From positions 1 through 33,391 of the forward strand of contig JAFGGA010000001.1 of the NCBI GenBank assembly GCA_016930835.1: 33,391 nucleotides of DNA, written 5' to 3'. The notes under the pieces are model-generated. The model was not told where the DNA came from. It worked only from the letters and a program-made list of their open reading frames with translations, and did no database searches. This DNA comes from Deltaproteobacteria bacterium (GTDB taxonomy: Bacteria; Desulfobacterota; DSM-4660; Desulfatiglandales; HGW-15). This document shows, piece after piece, positions 7,049 to 18,767 of this stretch. Position 1 is the stretch's first letter. Each line of letters starts with the position of its first letter. Both the position numbers and the translations under genes were made by a program.

Positions 7049-9043
7049 TTAAATGTCCGCTGTCTTGTCGATCTCGGTGATGGGTTCAGGGGAGTTTTCG
7101 TCGGAAAAGCCTTTTCCGTCCTGTTCAATATAGTAGTGGTGCACCAACAGGGTGGAGAGGATGGCTGTGATTCTCATGTTGTCGGTGTTGCTCATACCGA
7201 TCCCTTTGACCTTGTTACACTTGTGGATGAGTCCCAACGTAGGCTTTGATGCAAATATTCCCGTCCGTTTCAGGTTTGTTTGGTCAGTCAAATCATCAAC
7301 CCAATCCAGATTTTTTCCATTAAAAAAACTTGCTGCATCCGGTGCACGATAAGGCTTTTTCGGACGTTTTAGTATGCCATCCGGGATAAGATCTCTAAAT
7401 GCAATCTTCAGCAAATGCTTTTCATCCAAGGCTATGAGCTTGTGTCTGGGCGGGAGTTGATTCGCAAAATCCACAAGTTCACAATCCAGGAATGGAAAAC
7501 GACCTTCAACCGAGTTGGCCATGAGCATCCGGTCGCCCTGGGCTGATAAAATATAACCGGACAATAGGGAGACCATCTCCAGCCATTGGGCCTTGCACAG
7601 ATTATCCCATTTTTGGCTTGGTGGGGGAAACGAGGTCAAGAGTTCGTCTTCCACGTTTGTCCTTTTCATCTCTTGTTGCAGATTCGGATCCAGCATGAGT
7701 TTAATGGCCGCCGTGGTATCCCATCTAGGACGATGGGAGAGCCCTGGATCTCTAGGATCGAGGCTTTTACTGAAAAAGGCACGGGCAAAGGCAGGAGCTT
7801 GGCCTGGTGATCGGGCCAGCCATGGATATAGGCGCAGGATAATCTGCGCCCTTTTATTTGAAGTAGGATTTCGTGAAAGAAATTGACGAACCTTGGCCTC
7901 ACGGAAAAGATCATACCCTGCCAGGACCTCGTCGGCCCCTTCACCAGTGACCACGACCTTAAATCCCGATTCCCGCACCAATTTTGAAAGAAGATACAGT
8001 GGGACTGGTGCGGTTCGCAATATGGGTCTTTCCGTGTGCCATACGACTTGCGGAAAAGCCTTACCAATATCTTGGTATGATACATGGACATCATGGTGTT
8101 CAGCCCCAAGCCGACGTACCATCTCTTTTTGAAACGCGCCTTCATCAAATTCCGGGTCCGCAAATCGAATGGAAAATGTCTTCAGGGGTGATTCGGTATA
8201 TTTTGTGACGATGGCCGATGTGATGGATGAGTCAAGCCCTCCGGAAAGGTAAGCCCCGACAGGTACATCACTTCGGGTGAATCGTAATCGGGATGCCTTG
8301 ATTAAGTGCTGCCGGAGAAGGACGGCATTTTCTTCTTCTGTCGACGGATCATCATGATCACGAGAAGGAAATCGGATAGACCAATACGGTTCTAACAAAA
8401 ATGTGTTGTTGGAAACAACCGCATGGTGACCGGGCTCTAGTTCGTAAACGTCTTTAAATATGGTCCGAGGAGCAATGGGGCTCCAGAACGTAAAAACCTC
8501 GGAAAGACCTGTTGGATCGAATTCTCTTTTAACGTCTTTATTCGCAAAGAGAGATTTGATCTCGGATGCAAAGAGAAAGGCGTTGTTTAATCGTGTGTAA
8601 TAAAGGGGCCTGATTCCAAGGCGATCACGTGATAGGACCATCTGTTTTTTATTCCTATCCCATATGGCCAAGCCCCACTGACCGTTAAAGCGTTCAAAAC
8701 ATCCTGTGCCCCATTCTTCATACGCATGGACGATCACTTCCGTATCGCTTTTGGTCTTAAACGAATGACCTTTTAGGCGCAGTTCGGATGCCAATTCCAC
8801 ATAATTGAAGATCTCGCCATTAAAGGTGATCCAGATCGATCCATCTTCATTGGATAAGGGTTGGGCCCCATTTTCAAGATCAATAATGGCAAGTCGGGTA
8901 TGTCCAAGGGCCACATGCTTATCGCGGTAATAACCGCTGGAGTCCGGTCCGCGGTGTCTCAGTCTCCCCATCATCCGTTTTAGAATTTCGAGACCCGGTA
9001 TAGGACCTTCTTTTAGATTGATGATACCGCATATTCCGCACAT
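7049..9043 (-). CDS. asnB: Asparagine synthase, glutamine-hydrolysing
   Basis: 664 residues. The start must be the ATG of MCGICGI, since Cys2 is the glutaminase nucleophile; GGAG lies five bases upstream. The class II amidotransferase domain (about 1-220) keeps RLAI at 50-53, FNGEI with Asn75 and SDTEV at 99-103. The synthetase domain has the pyrophosphatase loop SGGLDSS at 267-273. It is about 100 residues longer than E. coli AsnB, as in many AsnB relatives of soil and anaerobic bacteria. It converts aspartate, glutamine and ATP to asparagine. It is last in the amt operon, 90 bases after the ACP-like gene, linking it to nitrogen status. A role in amidating a peptide or sugar instead of free Asp cannot be ruled out. 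Confidence 0.92.
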   Translation of the reverse strand: MCGICGIINLKEGPIPGLEILKRMMGRLRHRGPDSSGYYRDKHVALGHTRLAIIDLENGAQPLSNEDGSIWITFNGEIFNYVELASELRLKGHSFKTKSDTEVIVHAYEEWGTGCFERFNGQWGLAIWDRNKKQMVLSRDRLGIRPLYYTRLNNAFLFASEIKSLFANKDVKREFDPTGLSEVFTFWSPIAPRTIFKDVYELEPGHHAVVSNNTFLLEPYWSIRFPSRDHDDPSTEEENAVLLRQHLIKASRLRFTRSDVPVGAYLSGGLDSSITSAIVTKYTESPLKTFSIRFADPEFDEGAFQKEMVRRLGAEHHDVHVSYQDIGKAFPQVVWHTERPILRTAPVPLYLLSKLVRESGFKVVVTGEGADEVLAGYDLFREAKVRQFLSRNPTSNKRAQIILRLYPWLARSPGQAPAFARAFFSKSLDPRDPGLSHRPRWDTTAAIKLMLDPNLQQEMKRTNVEDELLTSFPPPSQKWDNLCKAQWLEMVSLLSGYILSAQGDRMLMANSVEGRFPFLDCELVDFANQLPPRHKLIALDEKHLLKIAFRDLIPDGILKRPKKPYRAPDAASFFNGKNLDWVDDLTDQTNLKRTGIFASKPTLGLIHKCNKVKGIGMSNTDNMRITAILSTLLVHHYYIEQDGKGFSDENSPEPITEIDKTADI

Positions 9044-9133: not shown

Positions 9134-9355
9134 TCAGGGGTCAGGGTCCAATGCATCCAATTTTTCAGTCACAAACCGTTCCAGGTTATCATAGGTCCCA
9201 AGGTTGCTTTGACATATTTCATCATCGGTTAGAACGAATCCGAATTCATCCTCAATAAATAATGCCGCCTCCAAGAGGGCTGGCTCATCATTTGCGGCCT
9301 CATCACGGATATTGATGAATTCCATGATACGTTTTTTTATTTCTTGCCTACTCAT
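9134..9355 (-). CDS. Acyl-carrier-protein-like protein lacking the attachment Ser
   Basis: 73 residues with the size, acidity and helix pattern of an acyl carrier protein. The segment LFIEDEFGFVLTDDEI lines up with the family's MALEEEF...IPDEDAE, and the end NLERFVTEKL matches helix IV. In the usual DSL motif, where Ser carries the phosphopantetheine arm, the sequence reads DEP (Asp23-Glu24-Pro25), so the Ser is absent. It cannot be a standard acyl carrier. The start overlaps the end of glnD by eight bases, and asnB follows 90 bases later, so it is an integral operon member. A protein-protein adaptor role, for example docking to AsnB or GlnD, is inference. Confidence 0.7.
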   Translation of the reverse strand: MSRQEIKKRIMEFINIRDEAANDEPALLEAALFIEDEFGFVLTDDEICQSNLGTYDNLERFVTEKLDALDPDP

Positions 9356-11960
9356 GGGACTGTTCTTTGGTCAATTGATAGATAAGCGCCCTTTTGATCT
9401 CACGGACCTGTTCCTCATCTTCAACTTTTTGTCCTTCCAAGTCTCGCACATAGAATATATCGGCGATATGATCACCTTTTACACCTGTTTTTGCCACCCG
9501 GATATCGAGACGAAGATCAAAAAGGGTACGCGTAATAAGATATAAAAGACCGATACGATCCGGGGCAAATACCTCCACTAGTGTAAAAAAATCGGATGAT
9601 TGATTATCCACGACCACTTCGGGTGGGCGGACGGGTTTCTTTGTCCCTGATAGAATGGATGGGGCGGCCTTTTGACCAAGACGATAAGGTAGCGAGATTT
9701 TTCCACTAAAAGTGTTCAAAAAATCCTTTTCTACCTTTTTCCATGTTTCACCGGGGTGAATCAAATCCAAAGGTCGTGTAACCGAAAAGATATCCACAGC
9801 GATTCCATCGACCCATGTATAGATATTTGAAGACAGAATATTGATATTATTCAGGGCCATGACTCCTGCAATATCCGAAAAAAGGCCTGGCCTGTCTCTG
9901 GCTACGAAGCAGACTTCCCATATATTTTTTTGTGTATTTTCACGTGCATCCAATACAAAGGCCGTACTTTGCTTTGATTTCGAGTCGTGTTTCAGTTGAT
10001 CGATCATTTCAAGGTGATGTATCACATTCAGGGGGTCCGTGTTCAGAAGGTACCTCGGGGGCATCACTTCAAAAAGAGCTGCCAGTGCCCTGGCCGTGAT
10101 TCGATCGGCCGTCATTTTTTGTATCTGCATCTTTGCACTGGCCACCTTTTGTGAAGAATCGGGTGTGGCCAGCTCTCCCCGTTCCAGGATATGTAGAATC
10201 TTGAAAAAAAGCTCCTGCACCAGATTCCCGATCCAATCGTTCCATGCCCTCGGCCCGGTTGCCCTGGAATCGGCCCATGTCAATAGATATAGCATCTTGA
10301 GACGATCCGTGTTTCCGATATGGCGCGCACATTGGACGATGATCTTTTCATCATTTAGATCCCTGCGCGTGGCGGTCTCTATGAGTAGAAGGTGATTTTC
10401 TATCAGAAAGAGTATATCCCCGGTCTGATTTTTGGGATATCTAAAGCGCTTTAGAATTTTGTTCGTTACATTGACGCCCCGGAGGGCATGACCCTTTCCG
10501 TCTTTTCCGATATCATGAAATAATCCGGCCAGAAAGAGGGGTTCAGAGAAGGGTAAATCCATGAATATGGCGGGAAGAAGGATATCCTTTTCTTTTGGAA
10601 GGTCTTTTAGGTATTTGACGGTCTCCAATATGTGTCTTCCCACGGGGAATATATGATAGGCATCGAACTGCACGCGATTTTTGATCTTGCCGAATTCGGG
10701 GATAAAGGTTTCCAAAAATCCGGTTTCGAGCATTTGATCCAGAGTAGTTGTTGTGTCTTTACTGTTGATGATATTCAGGAAACTATGGATCACCTTTTCA
10801 TCCGACCTGAATGGATCATTAACGACTTGGAGAAATTCCTTGACCAATCGTCGTGCCTCAACAGAAAGGGGAAGCTCCAATCGACTGCTCTGTTCAAAGA
10901 TTTCCATCAACAGGAACGGATTTGACAGGATGACCGTGGAGGAGTGAAAATTCAACTCATTATGATGGATATAAAGACCTTTTGTAATTTCCTGTTTAAC
11001 AAGACTTCCCTTTGGCGTGTGTTTTTTTTGGATTTGCCCCCTCACATAGGATCGATGCAGGATCTTGATAACTTCCATGGAAGCATGAAGTTCCCCGAGG
11101 AACTGCTCCACCGCCGCTATCTTTTTTTTGTTTTTAAAACCCAATCGGCCTGCGATATCCTCCTGGTATTCGAAGTTGAGTCGATCGTTTTTGCGGCCAG
11201 AGATCTCATGGAGAAAATTTCGGACCTTCAGGATGAATCGTATTTGATCGGTCAACTCCTCATATTCTTTATATGAAAGTTTACCCGTGTATTCCAGATC
11301 CTTGGGGTCCCTTACCTGAAAAAGTACCTTTGCCAGCCATAACAGATGATGGTAATCCCTTAGACCTCCGATACCATCTTTCAGATTGGGTTCAAGGAGG
11401 TGACTGGCATCTCCAAATGTGACCAAACGCGTCTTGTATACATTTTCGAGCCAAACTCCAAAGGCATCAGTCTTTTTTTTAACCACTTTTGTCTCAAGAT
11501 CTTCCATCAAATGCAGAAAAAGTGGTGAATCCCCGCAAATAAAGCGGGCATCCAGCATAGATGTGAAGACTTCAAAGTCTTTTTTGGCCAAAGAGATGCA
11601 GTCTCCAACGGTACGGATGCCATAACCCAGATCCAATCTCAAATCCCATAAAGGATAAAAAATTTCCCCAGCCAGGACCTTTGCGCTTTCGGGTATGGAT
11701 TTGTTGAACACTATTAAGATATCGATATCCGAATGGATGCATAATTCTCTGCGCCCGTAGCCCCCCACCGCTATAAGAGCAAAGGGTGTATTTTCATTAA
11801 ATAAATCAATACCAATAAGGCTTTCTTGAATGCACGTTCGAAAATACTGATCCATCATCTCGGAATAGACCTCATGAAATGATTCCACGATTTTTCCGGA
11901 ACGAAAGCTGGCCATGAGATTTTCTTTGGCCACTTTGAGCTCGTCTTTAATGAGAGTCAT
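9348..11960 (-). CDS. glnD: PII uridylyltransferase / uridylyl-removing enzyme
   Basis: 870 residues, normal length for GlnD. An N-terminal nucleotidyltransferase domain has GGYGRRELCIHSDIDILI, with the GG and DID residues that bind metal and UTP. A central HD domain has FLAGLFHDIGKDGKGH for removal of UMP. Two C-terminal ACT domains follow (ARDRPGLFSDIAGVM and APDRIGLLYLITRTLF) and sense glutamine. It adds UMP to Tyr51 of PII when glutamine is low and removes it when glutamine is high. The start directly abuts the stop of the PII gene; no strong ribosome site of its own is seen, so translation is probably coupled. Its 3' end overlaps the ACP-like gene. Confidence 0.96.
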   Translation of the reverse strand: MTLIKDELKVAKENLMASFRSGKIVESFHEVYSEMMDQYFRTCIQESLIGIDLFNENTPFALIAVGGYGRRELCIHSDIDILIVFNKSIPESAKVLAGEIFYPLWDLRLDLGYGIRTVGDCISLAKKDFEVFTSMLDARFICGDSPLFLHLMEDLETKVVKKKTDAFGVWLENVYKTRLVTFGDASHLLEPNLKDGIGGLRDYHHLLWLAKVLFQVRDPKDLEYTGKLSYKEYEELTDQIRFILKVRNFLHEISGRKNDRLNFEYQEDIAGRLGFKNKKKIAAVEQFLGELHASMEVIKILHRSYVRGQIQKKHTPKGSLVKQEITKGLYIHHNELNFHSSTVILSNPFLLMEIFEQSSRLELPLSVEARRLVKEFLQVVNDPFRSDEKVIHSFLNIINSKDTTTTLDQMLETGFLETFIPEFGKIKNRVQFDAYHIFPVGRHILETVKYLKDLPKEKDILLPAIFMDLPFSEPLFLAGLFHDIGKDGKGHALRGVNVTNKILKRFRYPKNQTGDILFLIENHLLLIETATRRDLNDEKIIVQCARHIGNTDRLKMLYLLTWADSRATGPRAWNDWIGNLVQELFFKILHILERGELATPDSSQKVASAKMQIQKMTADRITARALAALFEVMPPRYLLNTDPLNVIHHLEMIDQLKHDSKSKQSTAFVLDARENTQKNIWEVCFVARDRPGLFSDIAGVMALNNINILSSNIYTWVDGIAVDIFSVTRPLDLIHPGETWKKVEKDFLNTFSGKISLPYRLGQKAAPSILSGTKKPVRPPEVVVDNQSSDFFTLVEVFAPDRIGLLYLITRTLFDLRLDIRVAKTGVKGDHIADIFYVRDLEGQKVEDEEQVREIKRALIYQLTKEQSHE

Positions 11961-13533
<1,573 letters not shown>

Positions 13534-13887: not shown

Positions 13888-16800
13888 ATGCCCCGTCTTG
13901 AAGATATAAAAAAGGTGATGATCATCAGTTCAGGTCCCATAATTATCGGCCAAGCCTGTGAATTTGATTATTCCGGGACGCAGGCCTGCAAGGCCCTTCG
14001 AAAGCTCGGTTACGAAATTGTTTTGGCCAATTCTAATCCGGCTACCATCATGACCGACCCTGGAATGGCCGATGTAACCTACATTGAGCCCCTCAACCTT
14101 CAGACCATGACCGAGATCATTGCACAGGAAAGGCCTGATGCTTTGCTTCCCAACCTGGGTGGGCAGTCCGGTCTGAATTTATCTTCCGAACTAGCGCGCA
14201 CCGGTGTATTGAAGGAATATGGTGTTCAGGTTATCGGTGTTGACGTGGATGCCATTACACGCGGCGAGGATCGGATTGCATTTAAAGAGACCATGAAGCG
14301 ATTGGGAATCGAAATGCCCAAAAGCGAGCCTGCTTTCAGTGTGGAGGAAGCGGAAAAAATCGCCGAACAATTGGGTTATCCCGTGGTTATCAGACCGGCC
14401 TATACCATGGGTGGTACGGGCGGTGGCCACGTATATAATGTGGAAGAGTTGCGAACCGTTGCGAGCCGCGGTATTTCAGCAAGCCTTATTGGTCAGATCT
14501 TAGTGGAGGAATCCGTCATCGGTTGGGAAGAGTTGGAATTGGAAGTGGTTCGCGATTCCAAAAACCAGATGATCACGGTCTGCTTTATTGAAAATGTGGA
14601 TGCCATGGGAGTGCACACGGGTGATTCCTATTGTACGGCACCCATGTTGACCATTGATCCGGAACTTCAAAAAAAGCTTCAGCAATATTCCTATGATATT
14701 GTGGAGGCCATAAAGGTTATTGGTGGTACCAATGTTCAATTTGCCCATGATCCAAAGACAGGACGGGTGGTCGTAATCGAGATCAACCCGCGCACATCGC
14801 GATCATCGGCTCTTGCCTCTAAGGCCACCGGGTTCCCTATCGCTCTTGTGTCTTCCTTGCTGGCCGGAGGCATGACATTGGATGAAATACCATACTGGCG
14901 AGAAGGCACCCTAGAGAAGTACACGCCTTGGGGCCATTATGTCGTGGTCAAATTTGCTCGATGGAACTTTGAAAAATTTGAAGGTTCAGAGGATAAGCTG
15001 GGGACGCAGATGCGTGCCGTGGGTGAGGTGATGAGCATCGGGAAAAATTATAAAGAGGCCTTCCAAAAGGCGATCCGATCCTTGGAGAACGGACGGTATG
15101 GGCTTGGATTCGCCAAGGACTTTCATGAAAAATCTCTGGAGGATCTAATTGATCTACTGTCCGAACCTTCCAGTGAACGTCAGTTTATTATGTATGAGGC
15201 CCTCCGAAAAGGCGCATCTATTCAATGTCTGAATGAGAAGACATTTATTAAGGCCTGGTTTATTGAACAGATGAAGGAATTGGTGGATTTGGAAGAGGAG
15301 ATATTACAATATAAAGGAAAAAATTTACCCGATACTCTTCTGGAACAGGCCAAAAAAGATGGTTTTTCTGATAAATACTTGTGTCAGCTTTTAAAGATAA
15401 CGGAAAAAGAAATCCGGGACAAGCGTATCTCATTGGGTATTGTTGAGGCTTGGGAACCGGTACCGGTGAGTGGTGTTGAAGATGCAGCTTATTATTATTC
15501 TACTTATAACGCCCCCGATCAGGTCACTACGAGTGATCGACCAAAGATCATGGTCTTGGGTGGCGGCCCCAACCGGATCGGTCAAGGCATAGAATTTGAT
15601 TATTGTTGCGTTCATGCCGCCTTTGCCATACGCGATGAAGGTTTTGAGTCGATTATGGTCAATTGTAATCCTGAAACCGTGTCAACGGATTATGACACGT
15701 CGGCTAAACTTTATTTTGAACCACTTACCGTAGAAGATGTGCTTAGCATCTACGAAAAAGAAAAACCCGAGGGTTTGATCGTCCAATTCGGTGGACAGAC
15801 TCCTTTGAATATCGCTAATGAGTTGGCTTCCGCGGGTGTAAAGATTATCGGAACATCACCGGATACCATTGATCTTGCCGAAGACCGGGATCGCTTTCGT
15901 CAAATGATGCGCAAATTGGGTATTCCTCAGCCCGAGTCGGGGATGGCGAGTAATCTGGAAGAAGCATTAAAAGTAGCCGGGGAGATCGGCTATCCTCTCA
16001 TGGTTAGACCCTCCTATGTGTTAGGCGGAAGGGCCATGGAGGTCATTCATGACGAAGAGATGCTTCGCCGTTATGTAAATGCGGCCGTGGGGGTCAGCCC
16101 TGAACGGCCCATCCTGATTGATAAGTTTTTGGAAAATGCCATCGAGGCCGAAGCCGATGCCGTTGCCGACGGCAGTGATGCCTTCGTGCCGGCGGTCATG
16201 GAACATATCGAGTTGGCAGGTATCCACTCGGGGGATTCGGCCTGCGTAATTCCACCGGTTAGTATTCCAGCCAAACATATTGAAACAATTAATGATTATA
16301 CCAAAAAGATTGCCATCGAACTCAATGTCGTGGGCCTGATGAATATCCAATATGCTATTGCCAATGATACGGTTTATATCCTTGAGGCCAATCCAAGGGC
16401 ATCTCGAACCGTTCCTTTGGTTTCCAAGGTATGTAATATCTCCATGGCACGTATCGCGACGCAACTGATGCTGGGGAAAAAGCTAAAGGATCTGGATATC
16501 CAACGTAAGATGATCCCACATTTCGGCGTGAAAGAATCGGTTTTCCCATTCAATATGTTTCCTGAGGTCGACCCGATTCTGGGTCCGGAAATGCGTTCAA
16601 CGGGAGAGGTTTTGGGACTTGCCGATTCATTTGGACTTGCCTATTATAAGGCCCAGGAAGCCACCCAATTGGTGCTGCCGTCCGAGGGAACCGTGCTCAT
16701 AACCGTATCCGAATCAGATAGGCCCGCGGTCCAGGAGGTTGCGAAGAATTTTGCGGACCTCGGTTTTAAGATCCGGGCGACCAACGGTACGAATCAATTC

Positions 16801-17088
16801 CTTAATGCCCAAGGTATCGAGTCGGAATTGATCAATAAGATGCACGAAGGACGGCCGAACATCATCGATGCCATAAAAAACAACGAGATCCAATTGGTGA
16901 TCAATACACCCAGCGGCAAACTCAGCAAGCATGATGACTCCTATATCCGAAAAGCGGCCATTAAGTATAAGATCCCATACATTACCACGTTGGCGGCTGC
17001 ATCGGCAGCAGCGAAAGGTATTCGATCATTTCGAAAAGGGCATGGAAAAGTGAAGTCTCTGCAAAGTTATCATACAGATATTAAATAA
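13888..17088 (+). CDS. carB: Carbamoyl-phosphate synthase large subunit
   Basis: 1066 residues, full length. Two homologous ATP-grasp halves are evident: the first (about 1-400) with FDYSGTQACKALRKLGYE and RPAYTMGGTGGG, the second (about 550-930) with GGGPNRIGQGIEFDY and RPSYVLGGRAMEV. An oligomerisation region lies between, and an MGS-like allosteric domain (about 935-1066, with NGTNQFLNAQGI and INTPSGK) closes the protein. With the small subunit CarA, not present in this window, it makes carbamoyl phosphate from glutamine, bicarbonate and ATP for arginine and pyrimidines. The start is supported by GAGAGGAG. Most relatives sit next to carA, so the lone location is worth noting. Confidence 0.97.
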   Translation: MPRLEDIKKVMIISSGPIIIGQACEFDYSGTQACKALRKLGYEIVLANSNPATIMTDPGMADVTYIEPLNLQTMTEIIAQERPDALLPNLGGQSGLNLSSELARTGVLKEYGVQVIGVDVDAITRGEDRIAFKETMKRLGIEMPKSEPAFSVEEAEKIAEQLGYPVVIRPAYTMGGTGGGHVYNVEELRTVASRGISASLIGQILVEESVIGWEELELEVVRDSKNQMITVCFIENVDAMGVHTGDSYCTAPMLTIDPELQKKLQQYSYDIVEAIKVIGGTNVQFAHDPKTGRVVVIEINPRTSRSSALASKATGFPIALVSSLLAGGMTLDEIPYWREGTLEKYTPWGHYVVVKFARWNFEKFEGSEDKLGTQMRAVGEVMSIGKNYKEAFQKAIRSLENGRYGLGFAKDFHEKSLEDLIDLLSEPSSERQFIMYEALRKGASIQCLNEKTFIKAWFIEQMKELVDLEEEILQYKGKNLPDTLLEQAKKDGFSDKYLCQLLKITEKEIRDKRISLGIVEAWEPVPVSGVEDAAYYYSTYNAPDQVTTSDRPKIMVLGGGPNRIGQGIEFDYCCVHAAFAIRDEGFESIMVNCNPETVSTDYDTSAKLYFEPLTVEDVLSIYEKEKPEGLIVQFGGQTPLNIANELASAGVKIIGTSPDTIDLAEDRDRFRQMMRKLGIPQPESGMASNLEEALKVAGEIGYPLMVRPSYVLGGRAMEVIHDEEMLRRYVNAAVGVSPERPILIDKFLENAIEAEADAVADGSDAFVPAVMEHIELAGIHSGDSACVIPPVSIPAKHIETINDYTKKIAIELNVVGLMNIQYAIANDTVYILEANPRASRTVPLVSKVCNISMARIATQLMLGKKLKDLDIQRKMIPHFGVKESVFPFNMFPEVDPILGPEMRSTGEVLGLADSFGLAYYKAQEATQLVLPSEGTVLITVSESDRPAVQEVAKNFADLGFKIRATNGTNQFLNAQGIESELINKMHEGRPNIIDAIKNNEIQLVINTPSGKLSKHDDSYIRKAAIKYKIPYITTLAAASAAAKGIRSFRKGHGKVKSLQSYHTDIK

Positions 17089-17288: not shown

Positions 17289-18767
17289 ATGGATGGTATC
17301 GTAGGTGTTTTTGGAACAGATGATCATGAGCTTGTAAACAAGGCCTTTTTAGCCACAGGCGCTTGTCAGCACCGCGGAAAAGCCTGCACAGGACTGGCCA
17401 TCTCGAATGGGAAAGGTATCTATATTCATAAGGGCCTTGGAAGGATTGCCGAGGTGATTGATTATAACATCGTCCGAACCTTTCAGGATCTGGAGCCTGT
17501 AGCCGCAATCGGTAACATCGGATATACCAAGAGTGCCGTTGTTGAAAAGGTCAACACCGAACCCATTGAGGTATTTCCCTTCCGAAGATCCAAACACCGG
17601 TTGGCCCTGACCATGGATGGATATTTAATCAGGGAAGATGATCTTATCATTGAGTTGGAAACGGATTACAGCTTTCAGACGCGGAACAAAACAGAAATTA
17701 TTGGCGCTTTGTTACATAAACATATTAATGAGTACGGCGTGTCGTTCGCGGCAGGTGAGAAGTTGTTGGAAAAGTTAAGGGGGCGTGCAACATTTGCTTT
17801 GGTTGCGCTGGTTTTCGACGGTAAACAAAGCTATTTGCTAACCTTAAATGATGCCAAGGCATTTGAGCCTTTTTGTTATGGGACCATAAATAGCACGTTT
17901 ATCGCAAGCTCTGAGTCCGTTTCCCATCGTCGACTGGGCGGAAACATAACCAGAGAGTATGAAGGCGCAGAAATGACCATATGCTCCGAAAACGGTGTTG
18001 AGACGAAAAGGCTCGTGGAAGAGCCGCTTATGCCGGACATATTTCAGGGTGTCTATTTTGGGAATGTGGCTTCAATATGCAGGGGAAAAGAGATCTTTCA
18101 GATTCGGAGGGAATTGGGCCTTAAATTGGTTGAGCATTATAAAGAATCTAAGGCCGATGTTGTTATTCCCAATCCGGAATCCGGATGGGGGGTGACGGTA
18201 GGTATAGCGGAGGGGTTGCATAAACCGTTGCTCCCTGCACTGATCAAACTTCCCCAAGCGGTGCGTACTTTTCAAGAAGGTGAGCGAACCATACGGAATA
18301 AAGAAGTGGGTCTCAAATTCGGGGGAATCGACTCCATTCTAAAGGATAAAGTCATAGCCATGGGTGATGACAGTATTGTTAGGGGAAGTGTGAGCGAAGG
18401 GGGATCGGTTTGGGTGGTCTACAATGCAGGCGCAAAATACATAGAATTCTGGATTTCTTATGGTCCCATGTTTTTCCCCTCCTTTAAAGAGTGGCACCGT
18501 GGTGTGGATTGTTTGCAGGAACTTGCCGTTCAGCGGGCTTTTGCGGGTAATTATCCTTACGATAAATCCGAGGATGAGATCAATAAGGCCGCTGCAAAAC
18601 TCATAGGTGTGGACGAGGTGAGATACAACTCCCGGGAAAGCATTCAGGCGGTTTCAGGGAAGGGTTCTTTTCAGGCCCTGGATGCAAGCTACCCCATTGG
18701 CGAAACTTTTTGGCCGGATTGGCTGAAAGTCGAGGTGGAGAAATATCATAAGTATAGAGGAAGGTAG
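17289..18767 (+). CDS. PurF-like protein with lost glutaminase site
   Basis: 492 residues from the ATG at 17289, chosen because GGAG lies nine bases upstream; a longer start at 17274 adds only five residues. The whole length follows amidophosphoribosyltransferase (PurF): N-terminal amidotransferase fold beginning MDGIVGVFG and C-terminal phosphoribosyltransferase fold with VVIPNPESGWG, RTFQEGERTIRNKEVGLKF and the PRPP loop GDDSIVRGS. The N-terminal Cys nucleophile (MCGI in PurF) is Asp2, HNG is MDG (near residue 110), and the SDTE site reads NKTE. All three glutaminase features are therefore gone, while the PRPP site looks kept. It may use ammonia or another amine, or be regulatory. A genuine purF is expected elsewhere. 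Confidence 0.85.
   Translation: MDGIVGVFGTDDHELVNKAFLATGACQHRGKACTGLAISNGKGIYIHKGLGRIAEVIDYNIVRTFQDLEPVAAIGNIGYTKSAVVEKVNTEPIEVFPFRRSKHRLALTMDGYLIREDDLIIELETDYSFQTRNKTEIIGALLHKHINEYGVSFAAGEKLLEKLRGRATFALVALVFDGKQSYLLTLNDAKAFEPFCYGTINSTFIASSESVSHRRLGGNITREYEGAEMTICSENGVETKRLVEEPLMPDIFQGVYFGNVASICRGKEIFQIRRELGLKLVEHYKESKADVVIPNPESGWGVTVGIAEGLHKPLLPALIKLPQAVRTFQEGERTIRNKEVGLKFGGIDSILKDKVIAMGDDSIVRGSVSEGGSVWVVYNAGAKYIEFWISYGPMFFPSFKEWHRGVDCLQELAVQRAFAGNYPYDKSEDEINKAAAKLIGVDEVRYNSRESIQAVSGKGSFQALDASYPIGETFWPDWLKVEVEKYHKYRGR

Follow-up and report, generated by a model that had tools for sequence, protein, structure and literature searches.

In a stretch of 33,391 nucleotides from a member of the Desulfatiglandales (phylum Desulfobacterota; contig JAFGGA010000001.1), hereafter 'the window', we identified a gene for what appears to be an old, functional paralogue of PurF, here dubbed PAR, whose C-terminal phosphoribosyltransferase would still bind PRPP and whose N-terminal glutaminase is, judging by its residues, dead. 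PAR is conserved in a group of sediment bacteria and often follows carB2, a second gene for the large subunit of carbamoyl-phosphate synthase. The reading that we prefer, and hold tentatively at somewhat short of an even chance, is that the two genes form an operon independent of glutamine, with PAR transferring free ammonia to PRPP.

The membership of PAR in the PurF superfamily is far beyond chance. Pfam returns only GATase_7/6 matches, and the NCBIfam purF profile (the TIGR01134 equivalog, with a curated cut-off of 350 bits) scores PAR below its cut-off at 138.1 bits (E = 5e-40), compared to 527.7 bits for the host's own purF, whose product is roughly 29% identical to PAR. Its best relatives in the PDB are the PurF proteins of Bacillus subtilis and Arabidopsis (E = 2e-31). 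An AlphaFold model built from 29 homologues (mean pLDDT 73.8, pTM 0.76, with the PRPP loop and the flexible loop modelled weakly) retrieved only PurF structures at Foldseek ranks 1–17 (TM 0.65–0.71), and at this predicted accuracy (mean pLDDT 74) PAR combines an Ntn with a type I PRTase fold. The motifs on which the initial annotation relied (MDGIVGVFG, LTMDGYL, RNKTE, GDDSIVRG and VRTFQ) are all present where it had placed them. As a GGAG lies about 9 nt 5' of the ATG at 17289 and 34 of the 35 homologues whose sequences reach the start open with Met-Asp (the remaining one reads Leu, from a TTG start), the absence of the cysteine does not result from a wrongly chosen start codon. An Rfam search of the window found no RNA element upstream of PAR. 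The same window also encodes a Cys-containing superfamily relative, an asparagine-synthase-type class II amidotransferase whose N-terminus, MCGICG, is intact (7049–9043, minus strand).

For the glutaminase pocket, we compared PAR with 17 canonical PurFs, of which 15 belong to the same family of genomes and the other two are those of B. subtilis and E. coli (the E. coli string used differs from NP_416815 at position 440, which leaves the residues considered here unaffected). Across homologues, Cys1 is replaced by Asp2, Arg73 by Gly78 and Thr76 by Lys81 (35/35 each), Asn101 by Asp110 (36/36) and Asp127 by Lys134 (34/36), and both Asp2 and Asp110 are invariant among 29 full-length sequences. All four cysteines equivalent to the Fe–S ligands of the B. 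subtilis type are missing. Thus, the Asp after the initiator Met, the Asp in the HNG loop and the NKTE in place of SDTE, all reported from the single sequence, hold across the family; that every catalytic residue had been replaced was a slight overstatement, as it applies to these five positions and R26 and G102 are retained. The residues now found in the pocket (D2, N76, K81, D110 and N133) are themselves invariant, so it was re-made rather than left to drift, and the 76 invariant positions of the glutaminase-like domain, for which an enzyme using ammonia alone would have no need, indicate that this domain probably does something specific. A Met that precedes an Asp is normally not removed, so the nucleophile position of PAR is probably capped. 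With these replacements, the use of glutamine by PAR is very unlikely.

With canonical PurF (E. coli b2312; B. subtilis 1GPH/1AO0), PAR shares the two-domain fold, DDSIVRG and the K..RTF..R..K flexible loop. In addition to D366, D367, S368, I369, V370, R371 and G372 of the PRPP loop, PAR retains K326, R332, R342, K349 and Y258, the PPi loop (P-E-S-G), R332-T333-F334, and Y74, P87 and L415; DDSIVRG and the basic residues of the flexible loop are kept in 39/39 sequences. The alignment thereby bears out the earlier observation that the PRPP and RTF loops are kept. PAR departs from canonical PurF at Tyr329 and Ile335, both now Gln and both of which line the ammonia channel in PurF, at Thr374, now Val, and by the loss of R261-P262-D263, so that its acceptor or its PRPP geometry may differ.

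Table 1. Coordinates of PAR, its sequence features and associated genes (window positions unless a locus is given).
Feature	Position	Strand	Remarks
PAR, PurF-fold paralogue, 492 aa	17289..18767	+	Glutaminase site replaced, PRPP loop kept; alignment, profile and fold searches
N-terminus MDGIVGVFG	17289..17315	+	Asp replaces nucleophile Cys1; M1, D2, G3 invariant in 29 aligned sequences
PAR residues 78–81 (GYTK)	17520..17531	+	Gly and Lys replace Arg73 and Thr76; alignment
PAR residues 109–112 (MDGY)	17613..17624	+	Asp replaces oxyanion-hole Asn101, Gly102 kept; alignment
PAR residues 133–136 (NKTE)	17685..17696	+	Lys replaces Asp127; alignment
PAR residues 320–335, flexible loop	18246..18293	+	K320 and RTF kept, channel Y329 and I335 now Gln; alignment
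PAR residues 360–368 (DDSIVRGSV), PRPP loop	18366..18392	+	Kept except Thr374 to Val; alignment
carB2, second carbamoyl-phosphate synthase large subunit	13888..17088	+	No carA partner; catalytic residues kept, allosteric S948/K954/T1017 changed
amt, ammonium transporter	12313..13533	-	Divergent neighbour, named from sequence; also at L022
glnK/PII signalling protein	11961..12299	-	Named from sequence; also at L013/L063 and L022
glnD, PII uridylyltransferase	9348..11960	-	Named from sequence; also at L013/L063
Type B, example	L204:4976–6364		Directly 3' of carB2

PAR was found in 40 of the 85 genomes of the host's order, at 67–79% identity and with no homologue of intermediate score in that survey, in 10 of 395 genomes sampled across the phylum, and at 32 GTDB loci when searching by exact peptides. 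The form with Asp2 is thus a conserved clade, and it coexists with a normal purF in 25 of the 26 PAR genomes that are at least 90% complete, two points that the initial annotation had singled out for checking. The only exception, a draft genome rated 97% complete (G441), carries PAR and no normal purF that we could find, where PAR could stand alone or the assembly could have a gap. Over 45 genome pairs, the mean pairwise identity of PAR is 74.1% compared to 75.8% for purF, and the dN/dS ratios are 0.058 and 0.068 (from only one unsaturated pair); PAR evolves as slowly as true purF, under purifying selection, and its alignment has 174 invariant columns. At one locus (L026:5001–6462, the same contig data as G449), PAR is split into two frames near residue 404, by a frameshift or an assembly error. 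Another copy (L024, JAFGCE010000031.1) lies on a contig titled Woesearchaeota archaeon; it is 71% identical to bacterial PAR, so that this contig is probably misbinned Desulfobacterota.

In the host genome, carA, carB1 and purF lie together on another contig (C217), carB2 lies in the window and there is one full carA genome-wide; wherever a full carA was found, it is single and adjoins carB1 and the normal purF. Copies of carB2 from nearly all PAR loci share 82–88% identity with one another, compared to 50–57% with carB1, and carB2 keeps all the catalytic residues checked while its effector site carries S948T, K954R and T1017P. Among 36 distinct loci with upstream DNA, it lies directly 5' of PAR in 20, at 11–256 bp, and PAR is not directly behind it in 16; at L011 the order is asnA–PAR–carB2, with carB2 downstream. 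The gap of 200 bp in the window makes co-transcription likely there. The carB and amt/PII neighbours described previously are real, with glnD in addition, and genes of the amt/glnK/glnD group recur near PAR in a few loci, so the suggested nitrogen or nucleotide link stands in so far as genes of nitrogen and carbamoyl-phosphate metabolism accompany PAR. To that annotation we add that the adjacent carB is a second copy lacking carA, that the four Fe–S cysteines of PAR have disappeared as well, and that in relatives another glutaminase-altered PurF family occupies the position behind carB2. In one single-contig genome (G343, L195:1736–5081), carB2 appears as two overlapping open reading frames of 792 and 347 residues, which may reflect a frameshift, an assembly error or a split gene.

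In relatives without PAR, the search of the order revealed weaker matches directly 3' of carB2, which we call type B; where PAR is absent, carB2 is often followed by this family. This second PurF-like family is present in 20 of 390 sampled genomes of the phylum, and its 29 aligned sequences come from at least seven families. carB2, 76–84% identical to that of the window, lies just upstream of type B in 18 of 18 checked loci with usable upstream DNA. Type B scores 308–323 bits against the NCBIfam purF profile, again below the cut-off. Like PAR, it has lost R73 and N101 (both Ser in 29/29), has a polar residue at I335 and lacks T374; unlike PAR, it keeps Cys1 and the Fe–S cysteines, has residues 74–76 (Y74–T76) deleted and carries D, N or H at D127. 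Type B may be fully glutaminase-dead. The two families are about 26% identical and form separate clades, and just three columns are common to type B and PAR alone, compared to 11 for canonical PurF and PAR; neither these columns nor the tree support sisterhood, and type B therefore serves as evidence by analogy only.

Two related genomes put this arrangement into a wider context. In G174, the single carB is carB2, type B is the only PurF and purD is present, with no carA or normal purF detected in the genome. In G411, a single contig, whole-genome searches returned no carA and no PurF except type B, and carB2 and purD are again present; in the roughly 69% of this genome that was read directly we also found pyrB. 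As both genomes are rated 90% complete, the absences are suggestive rather than proven. Should they be real, CarA is dispensable for CarB2, and phosphoribosylamine can come solely from a PurF with an altered glutaminase. The TrpG of G411 keeps an intact GVCLGH motif. Its GMP synthase (L257:6393–7421) is a stand-alone synthetase domain of 342 residues with no fused or adjacent amidotransferase; this could be a further case, in the same lineage, of a nucleotide enzyme that has no glutaminase.

An ammonia operon is the simplest reading of a retained PRPP site, a lost glutaminase and a paired carB2 that has no carA. carB2 without carA and PAR without glutaminase would form the glutamine-independent counterpart of a carA–carB–purF operon, the most likely reaction of PAR would be PRPP + free NH3 -> 5-phosphoribosylamine + PPi, and the former glutaminase domain would be kept for architecture or for ligand-controlled regulation. 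From sequence, we infer PRPP binding, ammonia as nitrogen donor and phosphoribosylamine as product; more broadly, and as the initial annotation had proposed, the donor may be ammonia or another amine, or PAR may be a regulator. Consistent with the use of ammonia, asnA, whose product AsnA uses ammonia, adjoins carB2 or PAR in four loci, the glutaminase-altered type B consistently follows carB2, G411 and G174 combine carB2, type B and purD, and, according to PMC3261824, which cites Mei and Zalkin 1989, E. coli PurF with Cys1 replaced loses the use of glutamine and keeps that of ammonia. Against it speak the constraint on the former glutaminase domain and the changes in channel and PRPP-site residues; moreover, carB2 could share the single carA, 25 of 26 near-complete PAR genomes have a normal purF, and PAR is not directly behind carB2 in 16 of 36 loci. 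Nor is the co-occurrence of AsnA with PAR tight: many PAR genomes lack AsnA and two type B genomes have it, so that its role as an obligate partner of PAR is not supported.

A precedent for a Cys-less paralogue coexisting with normal PurF exists in Crenarchaeota, where an ammonia-dependent PRPP aminotransferase was hypothesised for PurF' (PMC3261824). PAR shares this coexistence; however, many PurF' members have, by the published description, Ala or Val where PAR has an invariant Asp, and PurF' clusters with purine genes (PMC3261824) whereas PAR recurs beside carB2. In the open-access literature, we found no paper on the PAR–carB2 pair or on type B except that study on archaeal PurF'. What is new here is a bacterial family whose Asp is invariant, the association of this family with a carB2 that lacks carA, and the second family, altered in a different way, that occupies the same position.

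It is also conceivable, if rather doubtful, that PAR is a PRPP-dependent transferase whose acceptor is not ammonia but a different amine. The flexible loop and channel were re-made with invariant new residues (Y329 and I335 to Gln, and E330), as was the glutaminase pocket with its own invariant set, and the coexisting PurF already supplies phosphoribosylamine. A parallel is found in beta-lactam synthetase, which arose from asparagine synthetase B by loss of glutaminase function and, like PAR, is related to class II amidotransferases and has retained a glutaminase domain that is inactive, although its synthetase fold and chemistry are different. Yet the core PRPP residues of PAR match those of PurF, and no pathway genes that would suggest a special product lie near PAR, carB2 being its only strongly recurrent partner.

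Unlikely, in our view, is a non-catalytic role in which PAR senses PRPP or a nucleotide and controls CarB2 (or PurF) in place of the normal allostery of carbamoyl-phosphate synthase. The altered effector-site residues of carB2 next to intact catalytic ones, its tight pairing with both PAR and type B, and the PII/amt neighbours at some loci would fit such a sensor, as would the fact that animal CPS II is activated by PRPP. However, PAR preserves its PRPP loop, including both acidic residues, and the Arg/Lys of the flexible loop, as enzymes do, 16 of the 36 PAR loci are not beside carB2, and a second carB was not found in three PAR genomes (G007, G009 and G016).

That PAR is a glutaminase-dead PurF fed by a partner glutaminase, or acts in mixed oligomers with canonical PurF, is improbable. 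The presence of normal purF in 25 of 26 near-complete PAR genomes and the retention of Y74, P87 and L415 are compatible with it, but no glutaminase gene recurs near PAR among the loci examined, and 29% identity to normal PurF makes mixed tetramers unlikely. A decaying duplicate without function, for which only the loss of canonical catalytic and Fe–S residues speaks, and which the initial annotation had named as what would overturn its proposal, can be dismissed given 70–77% identity across families, the 174 invariant columns, a dN/dS of about 0.06, occurrence in 40 of 85 genomes and coexistence with normal purF.

Extending the ammonia reading to the phylum, it is possible, though we hold it with considerable doubt, that a duplicate of carAB–purF that does not depend on glutamine is conserved in Desulfobacterota, with both glutaminases gone and two separate PurF-like families behind carB2. 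Fed by ammonia or controlled by PRPP, it would open the way into pyrimidine/arginine and purine synthesis, in some lineages as the sole entry. Glutamine amidotransferases are textbook coupled enzymes; here, a nucleotide-entry enzyme pair would have shed its glutaminases together, the PurF partner by two different routes, and ammonia could be a standing nitrogen source for carbamoyl-phosphate and PurF-type steps. The system would then offer a natural test of why a glutaminase domain is retained, and a warning that the products of many genes annotated as purF or carB may not depend on glutamine.

Another neighbour, a GltB2-like FMN protein, adjoins PAR in seven loci; we rejected a specific link as its relatives occur in 194 of 395 genomes of the phylum. 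This protein (L034:3112–4764) and its relatives have an N-terminal Cys cluster, score 47 bits against Pfam Glu_synthase without an NCBIfam match and apparently represent an unnamed glutamate-synthase-like family.
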